Source: an uncultured Saprospiraceae bacterium (GTDB lineage: Bacteria; Bacteroidota; Bacteroidia; Chitinophagales; Saprospiraceae). From it: 33,744 bases of DNA. The stretch lies in assembly GCA_937921555.1 (NCBI GenBank), contig CAKZUV010000295.1:1-33744 (forward strand), given 5' to 3'. This document shows, one piece after another, positions 1,439 to 29,650 of the stretch (position 1 is the first letter of the stretch; each line of letters opens with the position of its first letter). The notes under the pieces are model-generated. The model did not search any database, was not told the origin of the DNA, and saw only the letters and a program-made list of their open reading frames with translations. The position numbers and the translations under genes are program-made.

Positions 1439-1810
1439 TTATACCTTATTGGTTAGTTTTTTATCCAGATTTCCTCGCTGTATTTTTATAATTTTTAATT
1501 CTTCTGCGGCCAGCGCTTTTTTGAGATAAGTAACCCCTGCTTCCATATCAATTTCGCCACAAGTAAAAATATCAACGGCTGCGTACGCATACTCGGGCCA
1601 GGTATGGATGGTCAGGTGACTTTCCTGAATGACCACTACACCCGACACACCCAGCGGAGAAAAATGGTGAAACGTACTCGTTACGATGGTCGCTCCCATG
1701 ATCTCGGCGGTTTTTTTCAGAATCGTCTCCATCGCTTTCGGATCAGACAGCAGCCGGGCATCGCAGTGATAACCTTCAATTAGCCAGTGTTGTCCGAGAA
1801 AATTTGTCAT
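1439..1810 (-). CDS. speH: S-adenosylmethionine decarboxylase proenzyme (prokaryotic class 1B)
   Basis: This 123-residue protein matches the small prokaryotic AdoMet decarboxylases that make decarboxylated AdoMet, the aminopropyl donor for spermidine. The self-cleavage site is ESHLTIHTWPEY. Ser64 would become the pyruvoyl cofactor of the alpha chain, with His69 and Cys84 at the positions of the processing and catalytic residues (Ser63, His68, Cys83 in the Thermotoga enzyme). It lies 106 bp downstream of the membrane spermidine synthase on the same strand, so donor and transferase are probably made together. A 14-bp tandem repeat occupies the gap between them. Placement beside a glutathionylspermidine-synthetase-like ligase suggests it serves a dedicated polyamine pathway; that is inference. 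Confidence 0.93.
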   Translation of the reverse strand: MTNFLGQHWLIEGYHCDARLLSDPKAMETILKKTAEIMGATIVTSTFHHFSPLGVSGVVVIQESHLTIHTWPEYAYAAVDIFTCGEIDMEAGVTYLKKALAAEELKIIKIQRGNLDKKLTNKV

Positions 1811-1821
1811 GTTTTTTAAAT

Positions 1822-1867
1822 GCTTTTGGCTGTTCGCTTTTGGCTGTTTGCTTTTGGCTGTTTGCTT
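1822..1867. repeat. 14-bp tandem repeat, about 3.3 copies
   Basis: GCTTTTGGCTGTTC (1822-1835) is followed by two copies of GCTTTTGGCTGTTT (1836-1849, 1850-1863) and the partial unit GCTT. It fills the short gap between the spermidine synthase and AdoMet decarboxylase genes. Similar GCTnnnnGCT runs occur in other gaps of this window (near 7490-7520 and 12708-12722). Confidence 0.85.
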
Positions 1868-1916
1868 CTCTTTAACGTGAATGAGAAAAACATATAGTCA
1901 GTAGCAAATGGCAATT

Positions 1917-3464
1917 TTAGTTCTTTTTATCCTTTCGCCAGCGTTCCCAGTCTTTTAAAAAATATTCTAAAAGTACCGGATGATCCAGTCGGTTGATTTC
2001 CAGATTTTCCGGATTGTCAATATCCGGTTCAAAATAAAACATTCTTGCTACATTCTCAGTATTTAAATATTTTAATGGCAAATCGGAGTCGAATGTCTGT
2101 GGGTTGATGGGATGATTGGCCGCAATGATAAATCCCCAGTCTCCGAAGGAAGGGACGTACGTGTGGTAAGGATAAACCTCCGCAAATCCACTGACTTTCA
2201 GGGATTCGTAAATACACCAAAAGGCCCGTCGCGTATGAAAAGGGCCGGTGGCCTGCGTGGCAAATATCCCGTAACGGCTCAGTTTGTTTTGTGCCAGTTT
2301 AAAGAACGCAGTGCTGTACAATCGGGCAATTCCTTCGTTGGACGGGTCGGGCAAATCTGCAATGATGACGTCGTAGACTTCGGTCGTCGTACGCAAATAA
2401 GCCATGGCATCTTCGGGAATCAACGTTACTTTGGGATTGTGTAACGCATTGCCGTTTACCGCTTGTAAGAATTTATTTTCCTTGCCCAGCCGGAATACTT
2501 CCGGATCCAGATCTACGATGGTAATGTTTTCTACTTTTGGATCTTTTAAAATTTCCCGCGCCAGTAATCCTTCGCCGCCGCCCAGTACGAGTACTGATTT
2601 TTTGTACGGCGCGGACTGTAACGGAATCATGGCCAGCGATTCGTGGTAGCGATATTCGTCCAGGGAAGAGAACTGAATAATCCGGTTGATATAGAGCCGT
2701 AGGTCTTCTTTATTTTTGGTTAAAACGAGTTTTTGGTAAGGCGTTTCTTTGCTGTAAATAATTCTGGCGGTGTAAAAATTATCTTCCCAATGGCCAAGCA
2801 GACGATCCGAAAAAATACCGATCAGCAGAAATCCGACGAGGCAGGCCATCATCGTTGGTTCCATCCACCGCTTTTTCTTGATTTCTAACCGGTTGGTAAA
2901 AAAACGATAAATACTCAATCCCAAAAAAACGTTGACGGCCCCGAAGATGATGGAGGTTTTAAAAGTCCCCACGAACGGTAACAGCAAAAACGGGAAAAGT
3001 AACGTCGCAAATAAAGCACCCACATAATCCAGACTCAGCACGTAGGCCAGATTGCTTTTAAGCGGATAATACGTTTTTAAGATTCTCACTAACAATGGAA
3101 TTTCAAATCCGGTAAGTACCCCAATCAGAAAAGTAATACCCAACGTCAGAAACTGATAACTGTCTACCGATAACTGATCAAATCCATAATATAAGATTGG
3201 AACACTCAGACCTCCGATAATTCCCAGTAATACTTCTACTTTTACAAACCAGCCCAGCAAGTCATCCGGCAAATAACGGGTGAGATACGAACCCAGTCCC
3301 ATCGCTGCCATATAAATTCCGATTGTCAGCGAAAACTGTTTAATACTATCCCCCAAAAAATAAGAAGCAGTCGTACTAATGAGTAATTCATAAATCAGCG
3401 AACATAATCCGGCAATAAATACCGCCAGAAAAAAAGCCACCCGTTCTAACGGTCCCACCTTCAT
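1917..3464 (-). CDS. Membrane-anchored spermidine synthase (polyamine aminopropyltransferase)
   Basis: A 515-residue fusion. Residues about 8-220 form a hydrophobic domain of roughly seven to eight membrane segments. Residues about 225-515 are a spermidine synthase domain with the AdoMet-type nucleotide loop VLVLGGGEG (292-299), acidic residues in VDLD (317-320), and IIADLPDP (367-374) in place of the usual DxxDP active-site stretch. It should move the aminopropyl group of decarboxylated AdoMet to an amine at the inner face of the membrane. The frame stays open to about 3689, but that extension would run through the divergent lipoprotein gene. The ATG at 3464 starts a typical N-terminus (MKVGPLERVAFF) and leaves a 91-bp divergent promoter region. 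Members of this fused family recur beside YgiC-like ligases. The exact amine substrate cannot be read from sequence. Confidence 0.9.
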   Translation of the reverse strand: MKVGPLERVAFFLAVFIAGLCSLIYELLISTTASYFLGDSIKQFSLTIGIYMAAMGLGSYLTRYLPDDLLGWFVKVEVLLGIIGGLSVPILYYGFDQLSVDSYQFLTLGITFLIGVLTGFEIPLLVRILKTYYPLKSNLAYVLSLDYVGALFATLLFPFLLLPFVGTFKTSIIFGAVNVFLGLSIYRFFTNRLEIKKKRWMEPTMMACLVGFLLIGIFSDRLLGHWEDNFYTARIIYSKETPYQKLVLTKNKEDLRLYINRIIQFSSLDEYRYHESLAMIPLQSAPYKKSVLVLGGGEGLLAREILKDPKVENITIVDLDPEVFRLGKENKFLQAVNGNALHNPKVTLIPEDAMAYLRTTTEVYDVIIADLPDPSNEGIARLYSTAFFKLAQNKLSRYGIFATQATGPFHTRRAFWCIYESLKVSGFAEVYPYHTYVPSFGDWGFIIAANHPINPQTFDSDLPLKYLNTENVARMFYFEPDIDNPENLEINRLDHPVLLEYFLKDWERWRKDKKN

Positions 3465-3555
3465 AATAATATTTTTAACAAAAAACAAACAAAATACTCT
3501 GGAGTTGATTATCTTGGTCGCGGATTTATAATAAATTACATTAAAACACAAAATT

Positions 3556-4089
3556 ATGAAATCATCAGCAATTAAAACCATTATTCCCGCATTGCTATTA
3601 ATCTTTTTGGCCTGCGGTCTTATTTTTACCAGTTGTGGAAGTGAAAGCAGTGACACCGAAATGGTAGAAGTTCCAACCGAAGGACTCATTACGACGGTTC
3701 AGGAAGTAAGTGCAGATCAATTTAAAATTGAAAGTGAAGAAACCGTGCAGGATACGGCGGACAGCCGCATTATTGCAAACTATATGAACGAAACCAGCGA
3801 CACCTTTACGCTGCAGGAAGCACGATTGATGCGAAGCAGTGGTTCTGAGCGTCAGCAGTCGGTGGTACGTTCTGCCGGACTGGGATATTTTGGATTTATT
3901 ATGTTGGGTCGAATGGGCGGAATGGCGCCACGATCAGGTGCTTATACGAGTGCGAGCGCGCATAATAAAGCAACCAGCGGTGCTGGTCAAAAAATGAAAA
4001 GTTCTGCTAATCGAGTTACCCGTACGCGTCCTTCCAGTGGAAAATCAGGTTACGGCTCCGGAAAATCTACCCGTTCTTATGGTGGATAA
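3556..4089 (+). CDS. YgiB-like (DUF1190/UPF0441) lipoprotein with C-terminal Gly-Gly
   Basis: This 177-residue precursor has a Lys-led hydrophobic signal (residues 4-26) and a lipobox ending in FTSC, so Cys27 is the likely lipidation site; Cys20 (FLAC) is a weaker alternative. An acidic region (about 28-95) is followed by a short Gly/Met stretch (YFGFIMLGRMGGMAP) and a Ser/Gly/Lys/Arg-rich disordered tail that ends in STRSYGG. The order of parts, the GRMGG-like patch and the final Gly-Gly resemble E. coli YgiB, whose gene precedes ygiC. Here too the next gene is a YgiC-like ligase, and its start lies inside the last four codons. The tail is a plausible substrate for the ligase. Recognition rests on architecture and context more than on strong sequence identity. 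Confidence 0.8.
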   Translation: MKSSAIKTIIPALLLIFLACGLIFTSCGSESSDTEMVEVPTEGLITTVQEVSADQFKIESEETVQDTADSRIIANYMNETSDTFTLQEARLMRSSGSERQQSVVRSAGLGYFGFIMLGRMGGMAPRSGAYTSASAHNKATSGAGQKMKSSANRVTRTRPSSGKSGYGSGKSTRSYGG

Positions 4090-5266
4090 TCGCATTGTTT
4101 CGGTTCGGCCACTCGATGAAGTGGTTATCAAAGACCTGGAACTGGAATGGCTGACCGTCGGAGAAAACGAGGAATACCTGTCCAATGAGTTTTTGCAGAT
4201 GACCAAAAAGGAGGTCGATGCACTCCGCGACGCGTCCGAAATTACGTACCGGATTTTGCTCAAAGCGGCGGAACATGCCGTGGAGCAGGGGGAATGGAAA
4301 TTGCTCGGGATTCCTCCGCACGCTATTGATCTGGTAAAATATTCGCTGTCCCATGAGAAAGATACGCATCTGCTCGGACGGTTTGATTTTTCGGGTGGAA
4401 TGGACAACGTGCCTATTAAATTGCTGGAAATAAACGCGGATACCTGCTCTTTACTGGCAGAGACCGCTTACATCCAGGAACAGCAATGGAAACAGGACGA
4501 AGAAAAACTCAAAGGTAGTCCTTATAATCCGTTGATTGAAGAGTTGATCGTTCGTTTTCGGCGGATTATCAATCAGCATCCGGAACGGGATCCTACGTTG
4601 TTGATCTCCACGCTGGGATACGAAGAAGACTGGATCAATGCGGATGTGGTGGCCGAGGCTGCCCGCGAAGCTGGATTTGAAGAAGTCGAGTCGGCGATTT
4701 TAGAGCGGGTAATTTTCTCTCCGGAGGAAGGGATTTTTATCGAAGAGGACGATGGTGCTTTCGTACGTTATGATTTCTGGTATAAATTTATTCCGTGGGA
4801 TTTTATCGCTTACGAAGAACCCGATCTTTTTGATGATCTGGAGAAATTAATTATTGATCAGAAAGTGGTCGTCCTTAATCCGGCGTACACCATGTTATTA
4901 CAATCCAAAGCATTGTTGAAATATGCTTACGATTTGTATCCCGAAAATCCTTACTTGCTGAAAACTACTTTTTCGGCGGCGGATTTTCCGGATCATAAAT
5001 ATGTGGCCAAGCCGATCTATGGTCGTATGGGGGAAAATATTTCATTTTACGACGGAGAGCAAGAGCCGATTTATCAGACCGAAGGAGATTATGACAATCT
5101 TCCGGTGGTCTATCAGGAACTGGCCCCATTTAATTTTGATCTGGAAGGACATCGTTATCAGCCGAGTATTTTTTGGACGGGACTCCCCTCCGGTTTATGC
5201 TTCCGGCGTCAGGATGATTTAGTCATCGATGATGATGCGGAATTTGTCGGGCACGTGGTGGGATAG
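4079..5266 (+). CDS. YgiC-like glutathionylspermidine synthase family ATP-grasp ligase
   Basis: This 395-residue protein belongs to the glutathionylspermidine synthetase preATP-grasp family, which forms an amide bond between a Gly carboxylate and an amine using ATP. Family blocks are visible: LGRFDF near residues 99-104; KLLEINADT (114-122), a hallmark substrate/metal block; YVAKPIYGRMGENIS near 310, the ATP-grasp Lys and Gly-rich loop; and VYQELAPF with the Arg/Asp/Asn-rich C-terminus. There is no amidase domain, as in YgiC/YjfC and unlike bifunctional E. coli Gsp. The ATG at 4079 overlaps the lipoprotein gene by 11 bp, indicating translational coupling. GTG codons at 4037 and 4082 are other possible starts. 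A terminator follows at 5302. The real substrate is unknown; the neighbouring lipoprotein tail is a candidate. Confidence 0.9.
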   Translation: MVDNRIVSVRPLDEVVIKDLELEWLTVGENEEYLSNEFLQMTKKEVDALRDASEITYRILLKAAEHAVEQGEWKLLGIPPHAIDLVKYSLSHEKDTHLLGRFDFSGGMDNVPIKLLEINADTCSLLAETAYIQEQQWKQDEEKLKGSPYNPLIEELIVRFRRIINQHPERDPTLLISTLGYEEDWINADVVAEAAREAGFEEVESAILERVIFSPEEGIFIEEDDGAFVRYDFWYKFIPWDFIAYEEPDLFDDLEKLIIDQKVVVLNPAYTMLLQSKALLKYAYDLYPENPYLLKTTFSAADFPDHKYVAKPIYGRMGENISFYDGEQEPIYQTEGDYDNLPVVYQELAPFNFDLEGHRYQPSIFWTGLPSGLCFRRQDDLVIDDDAEFVGHVVG

Positions 5267-5353: not shown

Positions 5354-6406
5354 ATGTATATTTTAAAAAATAAATTTGGCCAACTAGAAAATGGCGAACC
5401 GGTAACCCTTTTTACTTTAAAAAATAAAAACGGATTGACCGCTAAAATCATGAGTTACGGCGGAATCTTAACGGAACTGTGGACACCGGATAGGAACGGA
5501 AAATTTATTAACATTGTACTGGGTTATAAAAAAATAGAAAGTTATTTAAAGCACAGTCCTTATTTCGGTGCCACTATCGGGCGGTACGCCAACCGAATTG
5601 CGAAAGGCCGTTTTAAACTTAATAATAAAACTTACCGACTCGCCACCAACAATCCTCCCAATCATTTGCACGGCGGACCCGGCGGATTGGCTCTGCAAAA
5701 CTGGCAGGCAAAACCCGCTGAAACTTCCGCCGGGCCTGCGCTTATTTTAAGTAGTAAAAGTCCCGACGGCGCGGAAGGCTTTCCCGGCAATCTGACTACA
5801 ACGGTCACCTACACGCTGACTCACAAAAATGAATTAAAGATCGAATACCACGCTGTAACCGATCAGACGACTGTCGTTAATTTTACCCATCATTCTTATT
5901 TTAATCTGAGTGGAAAGGATAGTGTGCTGGATCACGTTTTACAAATAAAAAGCGACCGGATTACACCGACGGACAAGACCCTGATTCCAACGGGTAATTA
6001 TTTACATGTTCATAATACGCCCTTTGATTTCAGAAAGCCTACACCAATCGATGCGCGAATTTTTGACCCGCATATCCAACTAAAAAATGCCAGTGGTTAT
6101 GATCATAATTGGGTGTTGAATAATTGGAATGGCCGGTTGCAGCCCGTCGGGTCTTTGCACGATCCGGAAAGCGGAAGAACCGTAAAGGTCACTACCACCG
6201 AACCGGGTTTACAAATTTATACCGGAAATTTTTTGGGTGAAATTCCAACGGAAAAGAAGGGCGTGAAATTTAAAAATTATCAGGCCGTTTGTCTGGAGAC
6301 GCAGCACTTTCCGGATAGTCCTAATAAATCGCATTTTCCGAGTACGGTATTGAAAGCAGGGGAAGTGTTTAAGAGTGAGACGGTTTATGGATTTGGGGTC
6401 AGGTAA
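5354..6406 (+). CDS. galM: Aldose 1-epimerase (galactose mutarotase)
   Basis: This 350-residue cytoplasmic enzyme interconverts alpha- and beta-galactose, feeding the alpha anomer to galactokinase. Family motifs are all present: GRYANRI (77-82), NHLHGG (103-108) with a substrate-binding His, the catalytic His in HHSYFNLSG (about residue 180), and the catalytic base Glu in CLETQHFPDSPN (about 315). There is no signal peptide, so it is the cytoplasmic form. It is separated from the polyamine cassette by a terminator and probably has its own promoter. Together with galK it makes a split galactose locus; galT is not seen in the window. Confidence 0.95.
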   Translation: MYILKNKFGQLENGEPVTLFTLKNKNGLTAKIMSYGGILTELWTPDRNGKFINIVLGYKKIESYLKHSPYFGATIGRYANRIAKGRFKLNNKTYRLATNNPPNHLHGGPGGLALQNWQAKPAETSAGPALILSSKSPDGAEGFPGNLTTTVTYTLTHKNELKIEYHAVTDQTTVVNFTHHSYFNLSGKDSVLDHVLQIKSDRITPTDKTLIPTGNYLHVHNTPFDFRKPTPIDARIFDPHIQLKNASGYDHNWVLNNWNGRLQPVGSLHDPESGRTVKVTTTEPGLQIYTGNFLGEIPTEKKGVKFKNYQAVCLETQHFPDSPNKSHFPSTVLKAGEVFKSETVYGFGVR

Positions 6407-27151: not shown

Positions 27152-29650
27152 TTGAAAACAACGATTAAAATTGTCTTGCTTTTTATCTGCTGCTTGCTCA
27201 CCTGTTTTTGTACGGCGCAAGAAGAAGATTTCGACTGGTCGGAAAGTACGTCGGTCTTCATCTTGCTGGATCAATCCCGGAAGGTAGAAGATCCGGATTC
27301 TGTACGGGTTCTGCTGAAAAATGCTTATAACATTGCGAACTCTATCAATGATACCTGGGCCATCCAGCGTACGCTGGCGGAGTTGTCTTATTTTGAAAAA
27401 AAACAAGGCAACCTGCCGACCGCTCTGCGCTACGCCCTGCAGGTAATCAGAGAGGGGCGCCGGGATGAACAGGATAACCAGATGATGCACTATGAGATGA
27501 TGATTCAGATGGGAGATATTTATCAACTGGAAAACCTCAATGATCAGGCGAAAATTTATTACCAGCGGGCAGTAGAGATTATCGGTGATGACTTTGAATT
27601 ATCCGAAGGAACTACACTCTACAAAAAAATCGGAGAAAATTATTTTCTGACGGGACAACCAGACAGCGCTATGATTTATTTTGAAGCGTTGGAAACACTG
27701 TATTCGGCGCAGCAGAATGATGACGCGCAGGTAGGACTTTACCAGCAGATCGTCAACCTTTACAAAGGTGCGGGTATGCTCAACGAAGCACTGGTGTACA
27801 ATGAAAAAATAAAAGAAATCATTACGCCTAAAAACGATCCCGCCGCGATAGCAACCATTATTAACAATATTGGTTACATCAACAGTATCCTCGGAAATCA
27901 CGATCAAGCACTGGACTATTTTAAACAAACCAAGTCGATCTGCGAAAAAAAACCATACGTGGACCAGGCAGCACTGATGACCAATATCGGAATCACCTAC
28001 CATAATCTGAAACGTTCCAAAGAAGCCATCAGCTATTTGCGACAGGCAGAAAAAATTCTGCGGAAAAATAAAGATCCCAACCAGGAAATGGCCAGTCTGA
28101 TCTATACTCTTTCTGTTATTTACTTGAATGAAAATGATATTTATAATGCCAAAATATCAATCGACGAAGCGCAAAAAATTGCCACTGGAAATAATAACCA
28201 AAAACTCCTGGCGGATATCTACGTGACCGCTGGAAATATTGACGAAAAATTATATCAGTACGAATCTGCGCTTGACTTTTACCAGCGTCACCTCCTGCTC
28301 CGGGATTCCTTTCTGCTCGAAGACCGGAAGCGCCAGCAGGATTTATTGCAACAACAGTTTTTGCTCAATCGCTCGGAAAAGGAAATGCAGTTAGTGATGG
28401 TTCAGCAGGATATTCAAAATTTGATGATCAGACAACTTAATCTGGAAAAAGATAAAATTTCGCTGGAATCTGAAAAGTTGCAACTGGAAAATAAAACAAA
28501 AGAAAACGAACTGATTCGTTTGCAACAGGAACGGGCGATTCAGGAGGGAGCGATGCGAAATAGAGCGCTGGAAGCGGAACGAACAGAGCAAACCCTGCGC
28601 CTCACCGCACAACGATTGGCAACAGAACAACAGGAACGGGCCCTCAGTGAACTCCGTCAAAAAGAAGAACTGGAACGGCTTAAACAACAAAATTTATCCA
28701 AAGAAAATGAGGTGCTCAAAAAAGCTAAAGATCTGCTCACTAAAGATAAAAATCTACTGACTCAGCGGCAGGAATTGGATCGTTTGAATCTCGAAAAAAG
28801 ACAGGCAGAACTGGAAAGTATTTACGTCTTATCCGGAATTGGTTTTCTGATTTTACTGATGATTCTGGCAGGGCTGTTTTATTTTCGCAGCGCCAATCTG
28901 AGACTGGCGCAGCAAAACGAACAAATCGAAAATCAGAAAGTCGAAATCGAACAAAGTCACCAGCAAGTAGAACAGGAAAGGCAAAAAGCGGAGGAAATTC
29001 TCCTTAATATTTTACCCGCAGAAACGGCCCGTGAACTCAAAGAGACCGGAGTAGCAACCCCCAGGAATTACGAAATGGTTTCTGTTCTTTTTTCTGACTT
29101 TACTGCTTTTACCTCGGCGGCGGAAGAGATGGAACCGGATGAGCTGATCGGAGAACTCAATATCTGTTTCATGAAATTTGATGAAATTATGGAACAGAAT
29201 AACATGGAGAAAATAAAAACGATTGGAGATTCTTATATGTGTGCCGGAGGAATTCCTGCGGCCAACAATACCAATCCGCTGGATGCGGTTAACGCTGCGG
29301 TCGCTATGCGGGAATACATTCATAGCCGCCGTAAACTGAAAGAACAAGAGGGTCGGAAATACTGGGGAATGCGAATCGGGATTCATACCGGAGAGGTGAT
29401 CGCGGGAGTTGTAGGCAAAAAGAAATTTGCTTATGATATCTGGGGTGATACCGTTAATCTGGCCAGCCGGATGGAAAGCAGCGGGGAAGATGGACGAATT
29501 AATATTTCGGATGCTACGTACAAACACGTAAAAAACATCTACAAATGTCAGTACCGGGGAGGGATTGTAGCTAAAAATAAAGGCTCGGTAGATATGTATT
29601 TTGTGGAAGAAAAATTAACCACTCCTGTTCTAAAACACGGCTCCACGTGA
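27152..29650 (+). CDS. TPR-coiled-coil membrane adenylate cyclase (class III)
   Basis: 832 residues, starting at TTG (27152), 9 bp after the receptor gene; no ATG precedes the signal peptide (1-22, cut after CTAQ). Residues about 30-400 are TPR repeats, predicted periplasmic. Residues about 400-550 form a long coiled coil; 555-577 a membrane helix; 585-620 a second coiled coil; 625-825 a class III cyclase domain. Metal-binding Asp residues are in LFSDFTAFT and KTIGDSYM. The Lys of KTIGD and the Asp of YDIWGDTVNLASRMES fit adenine, not guanine, specificity, and the transition-state Asn and Arg are present. A signal sensed outside, perhaps through the receptor encoded before it, may be turned into cAMP; that link is inference. 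Its 3' end overlaps the convergent DUF885 gene by 21 bp. Confidence 0.92.
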   Translation: MKTTIKIVLLFICCLLTCFCTAQEEDFDWSESTSVFILLDQSRKVEDPDSVRVLLKNAYNIANSINDTWAIQRTLAELSYFEKKQGNLPTALRYALQVIREGRRDEQDNQMMHYEMMIQMGDIYQLENLNDQAKIYYQRAVEIIGDDFELSEGTTLYKKIGENYFLTGQPDSAMIYFEALETLYSAQQNDDAQVGLYQQIVNLYKGAGMLNEALVYNEKIKEIITPKNDPAAIATIINNIGYINSILGNHDQALDYFKQTKSICEKKPYVDQAALMTNIGITYHNLKRSKEAISYLRQAEKILRKNKDPNQEMASLIYTLSVIYLNENDIYNAKISIDEAQKIATGNNNQKLLADIYVTAGNIDEKLYQYESALDFYQRHLLLRDSFLLEDRKRQQDLLQQQFLLNRSEKEMQLVMVQQDIQNLMIRQLNLEKDKISLESEKLQLENKTKENELIRLQQERAIQEGAMRNRALEAERTEQTLRLTAQRLATEQQERALSELRQKEELERLKQQNLSKENEVLKKAKDLLTKDKNLLTQRQELDRLNLEKRQAELESIYVLSGIGFLILLMILAGLFYFRSANLRLAQQNEQIENQKVEIEQSHQQVEQERQKAEEILLNILPAETARELKETGVATPRNYEMVSVLFSDFTAFTSAAEEMEPDELIGELNICFMKFDEIMEQNNMEKIKTIGDSYMCAGGIPAANNTNPLDAVNAAVAMREYIHSRRKLKEQEGRKYWGMRIGIHTGEVIAGVVGKKKFAYDIWGDTVNLASRMESSGEDGRINISDATYKHVKNIYKCQYRGGIVAKNKGSVDMYFVEEKLTTPVLKHGST

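Follow-up and report, generated by a model that had tools for sequence, protein, structure and literature searches.

Glutathionylspermidine synthetase (Gss) proceeds through an acyl-phosphate, and its ligase family joins an amine to a Gly carboxylate. Pederick et al. (2023, Biochemistry 62:899, as cited in PMC12568646, PMC10948618 and PMC12270671) reported that the E. coli ligases YgiC and YjfC join spermidine to peptides, and RefSeq likewise calls both products peptide-spermidine ligases. A physiological acceptor of either enzyme is not named in the openly readable literature searched here, in which no paper giving YgiB or YjfM as the substrate was found. Operons combining PspA, DUF350, membrane SpeE, lipoproteins, GspS-type ligases, and AdoMet decarboxylase were described by Ravi et al. 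2024 (PMC11237479), the accessible text of which proposes a link between polyamines and the envelope, credits Li et al. 2019 for this linkage, and names a Ctha_1186 domain. The initial annotation of the locus studied here considered the product of such ligases as yet to be established, which holds for the acceptor; it does not hold for the reaction type, already reported for YgiC and YjfC. The present comparison names one concrete candidate acceptor, namely the tail of the lipoprotein encoded next to the ligase, encountered in two phyla and on two apparently unrelated protein bodies.

The window, i.e. the whole stretch of 33,744 nucleotides of Saprospiraceae DNA that was analysed, carried all four genes of the cassette in the divergent two-gene units described initially (Table 1). 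SpeD passed the TIGR03330 equivalog (137.3 bits; cut-off, 75.65) and SpeE passed NF002956, the equivalog for membrane-fused polyamine aminopropyltransferases (559.5 bits; cut-off, 472), the other two genes encoding the PF03738 ligase and the lipoprotein. The probable start codon of the ligase (ATG at 4079) lies within the last Tyr and Gly codons of the lipoprotein gene (TAT GGT GGA TAA / ATG GTG GAT). For speE, a listed open reading frame starting at 3689 was rejected as over-long and position 3464 was used instead. No genes for PspA, DUF350, or CesT/Tir were found near the cassette, which is flanked by genes coding for galactokinase (237-1433) and aldose 1-epimerase (5354-6406) and looks inserted into a galactose gene pair. 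The gap between speE and speD contains a short tandem repeat (1811-1880) with a unit like GCTTTTGGCTGTTT. Elsewhere in the window (27152-29650), a large protein combining TPRs and a class III adenylate/guanylate cyclase domain adjoins a TonB-dependent receptor.

Table 1. Features of the polyamine and lipoprotein-ligase cassette, with positions in the window.
Feature	Position	Strand	Description	Evidence
speD	1439-1810	-	AdoMet decarboxylase, B. subtilis type, 123 aa	PF02675, E 1.7e-39
speE	1917-3464	-	~7 N-terminal membrane helices and aminopropyltransferase domain, 515 aa	PF01564, NF002956
Divergent intergenic region, speE / lipoprotein gene	3465-3555	.	91 bp	Gene coordinates
Lipoprotein gene	3556-4089	+	177 aa; signal helix, Cys27 (3634-3636), small beta/alpha body, disordered tail	
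Lipoprotein C-terminal tail SGKSGYGSGKSTRSYGG	4036-4086	+	Proposed ligase recognition element	
Terminal Gly-Gly codons of lipoprotein	4081-4086	+	Proposed acceptor	
PF03738 ATP-grasp ligase	4079-5266	+	395 aa; YgiC/YjfC/GspS type	

Profile searches of 100 Saprospiraceae genomes retrieved ligase matches in 27, 25 of which belonged to the clade of the window's ligase, as set by E <1e-30, and two to a second, more YgiC-like class. Of the 25 genomes with a ligase of the window's clade, 24 matched the lipoprotein profile, versus 0 of the 75 others; every lipoprotein homologue of this sample thus came with a ligase, which supports a tight coupling of the two. The 25th clade genome (G569) displayed a stop codon inside the ligase gene and no lipoprotein match. 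A membrane-fused SpeE was present in 22 of the 25 clade genomes versus 11 of the 75 others (long matches only); SpeE is hence associated with the ligase clade, less strictly than the lipoprotein. Polyamine genes occurred repeatedly near the ligase genes of the window's clade, in varied layouts, with speD either next to speE or downstream of the ligase gene.

The window's lipoprotein ends in STRSYGG. In its AF2 model, pLDDT was approximately 97 at residues 41-80 and approximately 53 at residues 161-177, consistent with the disordered, Gly-Gly-ending tail that had been described. A set of 122 distinct ligase loci yielded 76 lipoproteins of <75% identity to one another, with two tail types. Among the 48 G[F/Y]G-type tails, 47 end in Gly-Gly and one in Ser-Gly, Gly being the last residue throughout; their C-terminal consensus is S-(T/S)-R-S-(Y/F)-G-G, and Gly-Gly is the end in each of the 31 cases whose fetched locus includes speD or speE. 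The GFF-type tails (n = 28), mostly from Cytophagales, end in Gly-Gly in 12 cases and in Gly, Ser, or Ala in all 28, and their fetched loci contain neither of the two polyamine genes. As background, 5 of 817 open reading frames of at least 200 aa in the same loci, some of which are possibly not genes, end in Gly-Gly, and 146 of 821 end in Gly, Ser, or Ala. The Gly-Gly end is thus conserved beyond chance. The partners of the second Bacteroidota ligase class, the ligases of which share at most 27% identity with the window's ligase, are short proteins with an RGGFG-like motif that end in SS, GS, AA, HA, VS, and, twice, GE; a Gly-Gly end is rare among them. Since these partners mostly end otherwise, Gly-Gly is not universal beside PF03738 ligases; it is a trait of the window's clade and of the DUF1190 proteins. 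The expected conservation next to ligases therefore applied to the G[F/Y]G-type and DUF1190 tails and failed for the GFF-type tails and the second class. On the ligase tree, the Gly-Gly end and the adjacency of polyamine genes changed eight times each and seldom jointly on independent branches (approximately 0.5 independent contrasts), so that their association is inseparable from ancestry.

The same type of tail occurs on DUF1190 lipoproteins. Indeed, E. coli YgiB carries a GGFG...SSRSMGG tail and YjfM a GGYG...SARGHWGG tail, and the initial statement that YgiB ends as the window's lipoprotein does was correct. In a sample of proteobacterial DUF1190 proteins encoded beside YgiC/YjfC ligases, drawn from plasmid records, eight of nine distinct proteins (near-copies set aside) end in Gly-Gly, the exception being that of Halomonas (GGWGS). 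The gene order is reversed in Sulfitobacter, Loktanella, and Paracoccus: as the ligase gene precedes the DUF1190 gene, its start codon cannot overlap the Gly-Gly codons, and the DUF1190 protein still ends in Gly-Gly. Similarly, 10 of the 11 G[F/Y]G-type loci in which the lipoprotein and ligase genes do not overlap encode a Gly-Gly end. As both the non-overlapping and these three reversed-order loci retain the motif, its origin as a by-product of an overlapping ligase start codon was ruled out.

The hhalign alignment of the Bacteroidota lipoproteins with DUF1190 (probability 92.4, E 5e-7) covered the C-terminal 66 columns only; with the tails cut off, the probability was 9.6 and the signal peptide alone aligned. 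This loss upon tail removal indicates that the two lipoprotein groups have a common tail and that their bodies appear unrelated. A Pfam search gave no PF06693 (DUF1190/YgiB) match for the window's lipoprotein, and 5 of 43 of its homologues matched PF06693 weakly (best E 0.00037). Membership of the whole lipoprotein in DUF1190 was ruled out on these grounds, the likeness being confined to the C-terminal region; the label YgiB-like given initially is appropriate for that region and not for the family. The body corresponds with no known family, and the lipoprotein model had no significant fold match in the PDB. The homologues of loci L007, L011, L012, and L022 include some without a lipobox Cys, possessing an N-terminal membrane helix only, so that the system does not depend on lipidation. 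In locus L005 (2443-3811), the lipoprotein gene occurs as a tandem duplicate; the body of the outer copy is partly lost and its GFG...SFSG tail is retained.

The window's ligase matched PF03738 with an E-value of 3.3e-79, and the initial description of its family as joining an amine to a Gly carboxylate agrees with PF03738/Gss family chemistry. Its AF2 model (pLDDT 95.5) was closest in the PDB to YjfC (7uk6; TM 0.85), followed by Gss and YgiC. A phmmer comparison with YjfC 7uk6 gave an E-value of 1.7e-25, identity to E. coli YgiC and YjfC amounting to approximately 23-25%. It is not a Gss proper, as it scored 99.8 bits against the Gss equivalog NF007801 (cut-off, 882) and lacks the amidase domain. 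As judged from the alignment, its active site is intact. Indeed, residues R101, D103, E117, N119, K277, K311, and R376, equivalent to the Gss Mg/ATP/acyl-phosphate residues R316, D318, E330, N332, K498, K533, and R598, are kept throughout. Of the spermidine contacts of Gss, Glu391 is key to spermidine binding and Ser337 contacts N1 (PMC6272389); they correspond to E183 and S124, the latter position being Thr or Ser in the clade. Asp610 of Gss, which recognises the N8-amine (PMC2702004), corresponds to E388. This position is the column that best separates the tail subclades, with Glu in 41 of 45 ligases of the window's clade versus Gln in 25 of 28 of the GFF-tailed subclade. YgiC and YjfC carry Arg there, so that this residue does not decide the choice of amine, and position 388 may be taken as a lead on amine choice rather than as proof. 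Gss residues C338 and K607, which have been linked solely to non-productive glutathione binding (PMC2702004, PMC6272389), are not kept.

Concerning the supply of the amine, SpeD was the only AdoMet decarboxylase match in the genome and SpeE its sole full-length aminopropyltransferase, the other PF01564 match being a partial relative of 226 aa. Because the genome has no other copies (full-length ones in the case of SpeE), SpeD and SpeE likely serve the spermidine synthesis of the cell at large, the ligase being one consumer. The self-contained system that had been proposed is therefore not supported, as both enzymes presumably make bulk spermidine too; the proposed addition of the aminopropyl group at the membrane likewise gained no support as a step on the lipoprotein itself. 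SpeE presumably converts putrescine into spermidine. The genome contained two PF02784 decarboxylases, one of which was LysA, above its cut-off; the other, encoded away from the cassette, had the biosynthetic arginine decarboxylase as its best match, under the cut-off of that family. A third PF02784 gene that could be a candidate carboxyspermidine decarboxylase was not found. Residues 1-225 of SpeE comprise approximately seven helices, of which helices 2, 4, and 6 are each followed by a loop rich in Lys/Arg. Read literally, the positive-inside rule would, from this crude hydropathy count, put the catalytic domain on the outer side of the membrane, an unexpected place for an enzyme acting on cytoplasmic decarboxylated AdoMet. 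Among the window-type genomes without a local speD, eight of nine encoded a strong SpeD elsewhere. In the GFF-type set, an AdoMet decarboxylase match occurred in only 7 of 29 genomes and was each time more divergent, so that the GFF-tailed subclade may attach a different amine. Among relatives with a Gly-Gly tail, SpeD was not found in the genomes of two of the three loci L104-L106, nor in that of L118.

Lipoprotein and ligase are probably a substrate and its dedicated modifier, spermidine amidating the C-terminal Gly of the former before export. SpeD would produce decarboxylated AdoMet, from which the membrane-fused SpeE would form spermidine, presumably from putrescine. The ligase would use ATP to activate the C-terminal Gly carboxylate of the disordered tail, and a primary amine of spermidine would then form an amide with it in the cytoplasm. 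Since ligase and lipoprotein finish in different compartments, this modification would be required before export, after which the lipoprotein would carry a polycationic C-terminal cap. The acceptor, the amine, the order of ligation and export, and any function of the cap are inferred.

An unlikely alternative is that the ligase attaches a different amine to the tail (putrescine, homospermidine, an amino acid, or a peptide) and that the neighbouring speD and speE are chiefly the general spermidine genes of the cell, although several observations agree with it. As sole copies, both genes must cover bulk polyamine needs; lipoprotein-ligase pairs persist in the Cytophagales-type species, in which AdoMet decarboxylase is scarce; and the residue equivalent to D610 differs by subclade (Glu versus Gln). 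However, polyamine genes recur beside the pairs of the window's clade in varied layouts, Glu is retained at the N8-amine position, and the characterised relatives use spermidine.

It is even less likely that the product is a small soluble conjugate of a peptide with spermidine, comparable to the glutathionylspermidine made by Gss, and that the lipoprotein binds or senses this conjugate instead of being the substrate. Gss and trypanothione synthetase offer a precedent, the ligase is cytoplasmic and the lipoprotein exported, and some pairs lack Gly-Gly; yet the strict co-inheritance of the ligase with the lipoprotein, the RSxGG end that hardly varies across two unrelated bodies, and the disordered tail in the model argue against this explanation, and YgiC has been reported to lack Gss activity (PMC12506659, citing Sui et al. 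2012). Very improbable, finally, is a role of the tail as a docking or regulatory element only, with the covalent change taking place on a third protein or elsewhere on the lipoprotein, for example in the region of the internal GFG motif. Conservation of the internal (R)GGFG/SGFG motif does extend further than that of the terminal Gly-Gly, including to the pairs of the second class ending in SS, AA, and GE. Nevertheless, the family activates carboxylates, and the window's tail has neither Asp nor Glu, so that its C-terminal carboxylate is the only one available.

It is conceivable, though rather less than probable, that C-terminal polyamine amidation of envelope lipoproteins via a portable GFG...RSxGG tail, common to unrelated lipoproteins of Bacteroidota and Proteobacteria, is widespread in bacteria, the ligase and tail subclades having changed together and possibly attaching different amines. 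If so, bacterial envelope proteins would bear a general C-terminal polyamine cap, linking polyamine supply to the envelope.

Compared with known systems, the PspA/CesT-Tir operons of Ravi et al. 2024 have in common with the window a membrane-fused SpeE, a lipoprotein, a GspS-type ligase, and an AdoMet decarboxylase. They carry PspA, DUF350, DUF1190, DUF2491, or DUF4247, whereas the four genes of the window adjoin none of these; the accessible text of that study (PMC11237479) names no acceptor or tail motif. Among the fetched Bacteroidota loci, E. coli YjfI, YjfJ, and YjfK as queries retrieved no open reading frames and YjfL retrieved one. The conjugation of SUMO and ubiquitin to spermidine in eukaryotes (PMC12270671) also places a spermidine amide at a protein C-terminal Gly-Gly; this is an analogy only, as it relies on E1/E2 thioester chemistry and on enzymes and proteins unrelated to those of the window. 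The Gss synthetase domain and trypanothione synthetase share with the window's ligase the fold, the ATP/Mg residues, and the spermidine-contacting acidic residues, and their ATP-dependent amide formation between a Gly carboxylate and spermidine is the reaction proposed here. The window's ligase differs from Gss by the missing amidase domain, the absence of C338 and K607, differences at T446 and W571, and its dedicated lipoprotein partner. The closest counterparts are the E. coli pairs ygiB-ygiC and yjfM-yjfC. Their lipoprotein bodies are unrelated to that of the window, they have no speD or speE beside them, and the yjf operon contains PspA and DUF350 genes, both lacking in the window. As in the window, however, the lipoprotein gene lies directly upstream of that of a PF03738 ligase with the same fold and active site, and the lipoprotein carries a GGFG...RSxGG-type tail.
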